Shown in pieces: positions 43,728-46,700 of a DNA stretch of 64,000 nt. This stretch comes from Lineus longissimus (Eukaryota > Nemertea > Pilidiophora > Heteronemertea > Lineidae), in assembly GCF_910592395.1 (NCBI RefSeq), contig NC_088316.1, positions 11,532,001-11,596,000 of the forward strand, given 5' to 3'. The notes under the pieces were generated by a model. It made no database searches, had not been told where the DNA came from, and saw only the letters and a program-made list of their open reading frames with translations. How positions within the stretch are numbered: position 1 is the first letter of the stretch; each line of letters starts with the position of its first letter. A program made the position numbers and the translations under genes.

Positions 43728-46700
43728 CTGAAATGTTAATAATAAGAGGGTTAAGAGGTGGTTGAGGCAAAATGCAAGACATGTGTGGGTTGATGCTTGT
43801 CCTATCGGTCCAAGCAATATGACTCTATAGTTGACAGACAACATGTCATTACTTGTCCAATCACAACTGACTGTATACTGGACTATGCTTATACATAGAT
43901 ACCAAGAGAAAATCTGTTTACTTGCATGGACTACAGTCCCAGTCATAAGTTGTGCCTAGCTCTCGCAAAGGTTACATGGACTGTGGTCATAGCATTATTA
44001 AATGACATAATTTGGAAACGTAGTTTTGTGATGCTGCTGTGTCCAATGGTAAGACCGTTGTGACTGACTGGGACGTATTAAATGACATACAATATGTTGT
44101 ATATCTATGTAAGTTACATGTACATTCCACATAACATAGGTGAATTGAGAGATGTCACTTGTGATTGGGACTGTATGCTTATACAGCAATCCACCGAGAA
44201 GGCCTGTATACCAACATGGAATATGCTTATACAACAATACACTGAGAGGACCTGTATACCACATGGACTATACAGCAATACACTGAGAAGGCCTGTATAC
44301 TTACATGGACTATGCTTATACAGTAATACACTGAGAAGGCCTGTATACTTACATGGACTATGCTCATACAGTAATACACTGAGAAGGCCTGTATACTTAC
44401 ATAGACTATGCTTATACAGCAATACAAAAAGAAGGCCTGTATACTTACATGGATTATGCTTATACAGTAATACATTGAGAAGGCCTGTATACTTACATGG
44501 ACTATGCTTATACAGTAATACACTGAGAAGGCCTGTATACTCACATGGACTATGCTTATACAGCAATACAAAAAGAAGGCCTGTATACTTACATAGACTA
44601 TGCTTATACAGCAATACAAAAAGAAGGCCTGTATACTTACATGGATTATGCTTATACAGTAATACACTGAGAAGGCCTGTATACTCACATGGACTATGCT
44701 TATACAGCAATACAAAAAGAAGGCCTGTATACTTACATGGACTATGCTTATACAGCAATAAACCGAGAAGGCCTTGGCAATCTCAACATCAAATACTGTG
44801 AAGTAAGCACCATTTTTCTTGTTACACAGCTGGGCAACACCAATAACCTCTGCAACAGGATGAGATGAAAATAAGTAGAAATTTTACGAGGAACAAAGTT
44901 TGGCCACACGCATCAGCCGTTAATTTCATTGAGAGGGATTTGATGACAAAGCCATTAAATGACGATCTCAAGCCAGGAAAACCAAAACTTTAAGCTTGGT
45001 CACTTCCAGTCTCTGGGACCATGGCCAAGTTACTTGACAAGCTTACTCTCTTCTTCTCAACTGGGTAGGTTATCCAAGGATCACCCATGTATTCCAACAT
45101 TAAGCCTTATCTATGTCAGTGAACCCACAGCCTCACTTCACTTAGATGCCAAACTAAAGCTGTTACATAACATGAAAACGAAATAGTCAATTTGCTATAC
45201 ATCTGGACAGGGTGCTTCAATTTTGATCAAACCTGATTTGATGTGGAGCTTTAAGTCCAGCATTAAAGGATTTGTACATGTCATGCAATCAAAGCCGGAA
45301 AATTAAGGTCTTTAAACCTTTGTTCATTGAACCAGCCGGGTAGATAGGAATTGATCCAGGTCAGGATTAAGAATACTTCTTGATAAATCTCAAACTCACC
45401 ATTGTCATCTTTGATTGGGAAACACAGAATGTTTCTGGAAAACAAAACATAAACATGAAAACAAATGAGCAGTTTATAGGAAACCATTTTGCTTAAAACT
45501 GCTGTCAATATACTTATTCTTCTTGTATACTATCACAAAGACTTCCTCAATGCTAGTAATATCACATCTTCCCATGTAGCGGTCAAGCTCCGAACTCAAC
45601 ACTAGTTTGGCTCTTAATCAGTGGTGACGCACACCAGGGGGGTACTAAGTTTATATTGACCGCTGCATCAGAAGTCTGGAAATTCCAAGCACACTTACCA
45701 ACTCAGTTATTACACATCGTTCAGTATTTCATTAATATCTAATTCAAGGTCTCTGGCTCACATTTTAGATACGTTTTATAATTTACTCATTAAAATTGTG
45801 ACTATCAGGTCTAGTTTAACATTTGCAAATCATAATGCATGTATTAAAACTCAAAGCTTGATCCACTATGACCTACAGATAATGAGGGTGGGATGAAATG
45901 TTAGGACTGATATAAACACAAATGCAATTTAACCATGATTAGTTCCATCTCATGCACTCTTGCTTCTACAGTACATACAAACATTACAGCACACAGAGCA
46001 ACGGTCTTCACCAATCAGCATGTTACTTCCAAGTGCACTGTAGGTTATGGTTCATAGCTGTACACCATCCCTGATTACTGGTGGTCTAGTTAAATGGAAA
46101 TCCACTGATACACAATGCCAAAGTGCAGTTATTATGAATACAAATTTATTGAAATTTGGTATTTATAGTATTTATAGTATATCTGTCTACACAAAGGCAA
46201 TGCTGATAATTATATTCAGTATGTATTTACGCAACTGATAGTTTTCAATTTCGATTACAAATTCAAAATTATTTACGAACAGCGTAGGCCTTTGATATCA
46301 ACGCCGAGACCAGAAATCATTGGAGGTTGGACCCAGTAATTAACACGACAACCTGCATGGTGCATTGATTAGTAGACAAAATAGAATGAAATTTTTAAAT
46401 AAAAGTGAGGTTAGAAAGTCAGAGTGAAAGCAGTTGAGAAATTAATCAGTGTCAATACAATTAACGAAAAGCAAGTGGTTTTTTTTAAAAATCAAGCTTC
46501 AAAGAACAAAAACACATATTTTTAATGTCATTCCCAGCACACCAAAAAAGGTCTTGCAGCATCTACATTCTACTGGAAGGGTCACGCGTAACTCCTTTTG
46601 CCAAGCGTTGATCGGCAACCTGTACATCATCATCAACAGTCTTGAGCACTGTATCCCGGTGGGATGGATTTGATTTTCCACAAGGGCTTTTTCTCAGCCA

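Follow-up and report, generated by a model that had tools for sequence, protein, structure and literature searches.

The window, that is the whole stretch of 64,000 nucleotides of Lineus longissimus DNA analysed here, comes from an assembly of 391 Mb in 30 contigs. It carries on its minus strand a gene that had been assigned to PDE2A in a preliminary description of the sequence. We located its exons by tblastn, using human PDE2A as query, and the splice joins gave a continuous model of 648 aa running from 56899 to 35624. The model lists 18 exons, including two pairs of alternatives, so that 16 exons contribute to each 648-aa version. The 5' end of the gene lies outside the model, and a further weak GAF-A match was obtained by tblastn at 62442-62386 (E = 0.031). 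Pfam matches were recovered for PDEase_I (3.2e-81) and GAF (4.1e-25), and the best PDB match of the 648-aa model (spliced from donor 1, see below) was human PDE2A (E = 1.6e-243), a cGMP-specific phosphodiesterase chain giving 1.4e-103. With its GAF and PDEase_I domains, and closest to PDE2A among the phosphodiesterases of known structure, the gene proved to be PDE2A as proposed, and the placement of the array-bearing exon at the close of GAF-B was also supported.

This exon has 44737 as its last base (...CISIVH), and its donor GT begins at 44736 on the minus strand (Table 1). The 36 terminal nucleotides of the exon and the 12 initial nucleotides of the intron together form a unit of 48 bp. We counted ten occurrences of the pattern GT[AG]AGTATACAG, at 44736, 44688, 44640, 44592, 44544, 44496, 44448, 44400, 44352, and 44304, with a step of exactly 48. 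TRF reported an array of period 48 with 12.7 copies at 44174-44774 (88% matches, score 901), far above chance. The ten GT(A/G)AGT donors, their exact spacing and the composition of the unit (36 exon and 12 intron nucleotides), all of which had been described beforehand, were thus confirmed by the pattern count and by TRF.

Table 1. Coordinates of the exons, donor and repeat arrays discussed in the text (positions within the window).
Feature	Position	Strand	Remarks
PDE2A exon e44k, end of GAF-B	44737..44849	-	exon copy of the unit at 44772-44737, 36 nt
Ten regular 48-bp units (36 nt exon-type + 12 nt GTRAGTATACAG)	44293..44772	-	unit 0 is the exon copy
Donor 1 (GT)	44735..44736	-	yields the conserved PDE2A joint without insert
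Decayed tail of the 48-bp array	44174..44292	-	past donor 10: 41-nt step in place of 48, donor consensus lost, frame closed
Lone diverged unit of the 48-bp type	43879..43933	-	deeper in the intron
Next exon, e43k	43527..43727	-	first base 43727
22-bp minisatellite	41437..41924	-	starts 18 nt into the intron after exon e42k; reaches neither exon nor donor
Catalytic-domain exon e36k	36642..36787	-	last 72 nt repeated in the second array
Second exon-end and donor array, 82/86-bp unit	36236..36709	-	donors 36641, 36559, 36477, 36395, 36309

When the ten units were compared with each other, two subfamilies 5-6 positions apart could be distinguished. Units 1 and 4, 3 and 7, and 5 and 9 were identical over 48 nt and the exon copy matched no other unit fully, so that the recent growth of the array took place on the downstream side of the exon. 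The exon copy is no outlier, its 3-5 differences to the other units comparing with 5-6 between the subfamilies. The units are not all identical, and it is therefore unlikely that the array is a mere echo of the assembly. In this one assembly, its head-to-tail units, with a length between 10 and 100 bp and with subfamilies of alike units, are those of a minisatellite.

Splicing from donor 1 to the exon starting at 43727 produced a joint that aligned with human PDE2A over 105 residues without a gap, and the PDB alignment of the 648-aa model to human PDE2A likewise ran through this joint ungapped. At the position corresponding to the array, the human protein lacks any insert. The extra copies would therefore be additions to a conserved protein, at a joint located in what we take to be the linker helix between GAF-B and the catalytic domain.

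The array had been read in the preliminary description as a working length switch. Several of the ten donors would then be used, producing PDE2A proteins with 0-9 extra blocks of 16 residues that would alter the coupling between GAF-B and the catalytic domain. Two expectations attached to this proposal were borne out. Each of the ten donors, when joined to the exon that begins at 43727, gave an in-frame and stop-free product (10/10), and the donors were near-equal in strength, eight of them scoring 4.59-4.76 and two 2.49 with a weight table. The regularity of the first ten units, compared with the decay of those beyond, also speaks for several donors being in use. The exon reading frame was open through the array as far as 44227, as described, but two more frames were open across it, one on the minus strand (44114-44782) and one on the plus strand (44082-44801). 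Because three frames are open, the openness of the array says little, and a 48-nt unit free of stops in one copy tends to be so in all of them. We thus rejected the open frame as a sign of coding.

We saw no sign of protein-level constraint on the added peptide in pN/pS among the 48-bp units, a comparison of low power that rests on few differences. For the ten units, pN/pS was 0.94 in the exon frame, in between the values of the two other frames of the same strand (1.04 and 0.87). For the nine units beyond the exon copy, it was 1.27, the highest of the three (0.88 and 0.80 in the other frames). In single-sequence AlphaFold predictions, made without relatives, the ladder blocks folded as strands instead of a helix, with a low confidence that gives this fold little weight (best pLDDT of 69.6, the four other models having 64.9, 28.7, 26.8, and 25.2). 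The conserved joint from donor 1, which matches a human protein lacking any insert there, the lack of visible coding constraint and a second array whose read-through is nonsense all argue against the working switch. The sequence evidence thus leans against a variable protein ladder, and we consider its productive use very unlikely.

The second array lies at the end of a catalytic-domain exon of the same gene. This exon ends at 36642 with CAG/GTAAGT, and the repeated unit comprises 72 exon nucleotides and 14 intron nucleotides in its 86-nt form, three of the units having 82 nt. The exon copy retains four bases that are absent from three of the five downstream units. The first four of the five donors are identical (CAG/GTAAGT, score 8.63), and the last one scored 4.84. 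The joins made from donors 2 to 5 all stop at once (4/4) and would produce a truncated protein, so that this array is incapable of working as a length switch. A genome search with the 82-bp unit matched only its own locus (three overlapping matches). This array is a natural control within the same gene: since its additional donors lead to immediate stops, arrays of exon end and donor can form and survive in PDE2A even where no productive ladder results. PDE2A could still be viewed as having two ladders, one tolerant and one intolerant of misuse, the tolerant one being partly used and giving rise to a family of PDE2A proteins that depends on repeat number and varies by 16-residue steps in the link between GAF-B and the catalytic domain; we would give this only a slim chance.

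The reading that we favour, with a probability of about 75%, is that the 48-bp array is a minisatellite that arose by tandem duplication across the 5' splice site and that is splice-silent since donor 1 was kept. The boundary segment (36 exon nucleotides and 12 intron nucleotides) would first have undergone a head-to-tail duplication, most likely through slippage or unequal exchange, and its copies would then have expanded within the intron. The motif GCCTTC is preceded by CCAAG on the exon side of the unit and by TACAG on its intron side, and short matches of this kind are of the type used by such events. Because exon end and donor are both intact in the upstream copy, the use of donor 1 would give normal PDE2A and the remaining copies would be removed as intron. 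A donor is present in all ten units (10/10) and the joint made from donor 1 is unaltered; we infer from the sequence that splicing in vivo relies mainly on donor 1. Use of the later donors at a low level, as noise, would be compatible with a silent array. The 48-bp array is real and unusual in its form, and its effect is probably silent.

Several observations count against silence. The near-equal donor scores give no reason to choose donor 1, the donor-bearing part of the unit varies less than the exon-type part (variable columns 1/12 and 8/36, respectively), all ten products are in frame, and the exon copy is not clearly apart from the units of the array. Competition between duplicated 5' splice sites is known, and with near-equal donors spaced by 48 nt the downstream ones could be used appreciably without any function, resulting in a range of PDE2A proteins that are defective or slightly changed. 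Competition of this kind in the second array would, however, make nonsense transcripts from consensus donors, suggesting that donor 1 is favoured, and we regard such a noisy use of the array as unlikely.

The array could also have a role at the RNA level, as a series of U1 binding sites that would help the exon to be recognised or suppress premature polyadenylation. Ten consensus-like donors are indeed packed into 433 nt, and the smaller number of variable columns in the donor-bearing part is a weak indication of donor maintenance, but this sameness is explained by the young age of the array. We detected no unusual RNA fold (z = 0.20, with 55/100 shuffles folding as well or better) and zero Rfam matches at gathering thresholds in 43400-45600, two results neither of which bears directly on U1 binding. 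We consider this role to be highly improbable.

Large arrays are abundant in the PDE2A model, where they cover 2630 of 21276 bases, against 115 of the 42724 bases in the rest of the window. Around other PDEase_I matches (12 regions), the coverage is 888 of 120000 bases, and in eight arbitrary regions it is 3838 of 80000 bases, of which 2365 fall in a single region. Among the 17 donors of the model, those of the two array-bearing exons have a 24/24 copy within 450 nt and the remaining 15 reach at most 14/24, and the best nearby copy of the 18 acceptors reaches at most 17/24 over the same distance. We also counted GTRAGT sites on both strands of 264 kb (the window, the 12 PDEase_I regions and the eight arbitrary regions); a copy of the surroundings at most 319 nt downstream was found for 14 of 226 sites, and all 14 are located in the two PDE2A arrays.

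A clustering of donors in arrays beyond chance was not retained, as random placement of the five large arrays of the gene put at least two donors inside arrays in 65% of the trials. At the density of arrays seen in PDE2A, it is thus unsurprising that two donors lie within them (P = 0.65). At least two donors together with zero acceptors were obtained in 0.8% of the random placements (P = 0.008, post hoc). The upstream edges of the arrays were found within 20 nt of a donor in 1/5 cases (P = 0.16), within 40 nt in 2/5 (P = 0.04), within 70 nt in 3/5 (P = 0.013), and within 100 nt in 3/5 (P = 0.036). Both the donor-versus-acceptor and the edge tests are post hoc and provide a lead only. A donor bias of the arrays could be explained by silent tolerance, a duplication over a donor leaving the first donor intact. 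Another array of 42 bp (52280-52552, 6.5 copies), located within a long PDE2A intron, is largely open in a minus frame.

In most known cases of tandem alternative 5' splice sites, only a few bases separate the donors. The PDE2A array resembles them in having several in-frame donors in a row but differs by its units of 48 nt, and its use of more than one donor is only putative. It shares with intronic minisatellites or VNTRs a 48-bp unit, identical units within subfamilies and a decaying edge, except that its first unit is coding sequence plus a donor.

The nearest cases that we found in print are tandem genomic duplications with splice sites, foremost two genes of fission yeast. In the fission yeast study (PMC3629103), these two genes carry 24-nt tandem repeats with splice sites, with spliced ESTs for both, and the authors mention that more than the annotated intron is missing from one EST and that further study is needed. 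The summary by Ma et al. (2016; PMC4974935) describes these introns as extending across four and two duplicates. The fission yeast genes and PDE2A share short intragenic head-to-tail units that contain splice sites. The fission yeast repeats, however, make a new intron (24-nt units with AGGC proto splice sites), whereas in PDE2A the donor of an existing intron was multiplied with the exon end and the acceptor is still the original one. In the tandem duplication model of Rogers, as outlined in PMC4974935, splice signals are duplicated and the peptide remains unaltered, ATP2A1 (Hellsten et al., 2011, as cited there) being the case given with it. According to this outline, PDE2A is similar in that the duplication involves splice signals and leaves the donor-1 peptide unaltered, but in the model an exonic AGGT segment gives rise to a new intron, whereas in PDE2A the ten donors belong to an old intron and five more form the second array. 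The PDE2A locus is not a case of intron gain by tandem duplication, in which GT and AG would both derive from copies of a single exonic segment: the acceptor preceding 43727 is outside the array, and a pre-existing exon-intron boundary is contained in the unit. No donor array in PDE2A was named in the titles and abstract openings found, although we do not claim its absence from print.

Even if splice-silent, the two arrays would constitute a natural experiment, with two runs of near-identical donors in one transcript. The choice of a donor other than the first would keep the frame in the 48-bp array and meet a stop in the 82-bp array, and comparing donor use between them could thus indicate how the first among equal 5' splice sites gets chosen. 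They also suggest how a minisatellite can start from the end of an exon while the gene stays unbroken.

Other features of the window are long open frames at 21854-23507 (plus strand), recognised by eye, that resemble a non-LTR reverse transcriptase, and two pairs of exon versions in PDE2A. An exon of GAF-B is present in two versions of 82 nt with equal phases (48299-48380 and 47234-47315, minus strand; pS 1.03 versus pN 0.20). Inclusion of both or neither would cause a frameshift, and they are candidate mutually exclusive exons of the second GAF domain. A 48-nt exon of the catalytic domain similarly occurs in two versions (41136-41183 and 40206-40253, minus strand; pS 0.65, pN 0.08), a candidate for a second mutually exclusive pair in PDE2A, in which including both would keep the frame.
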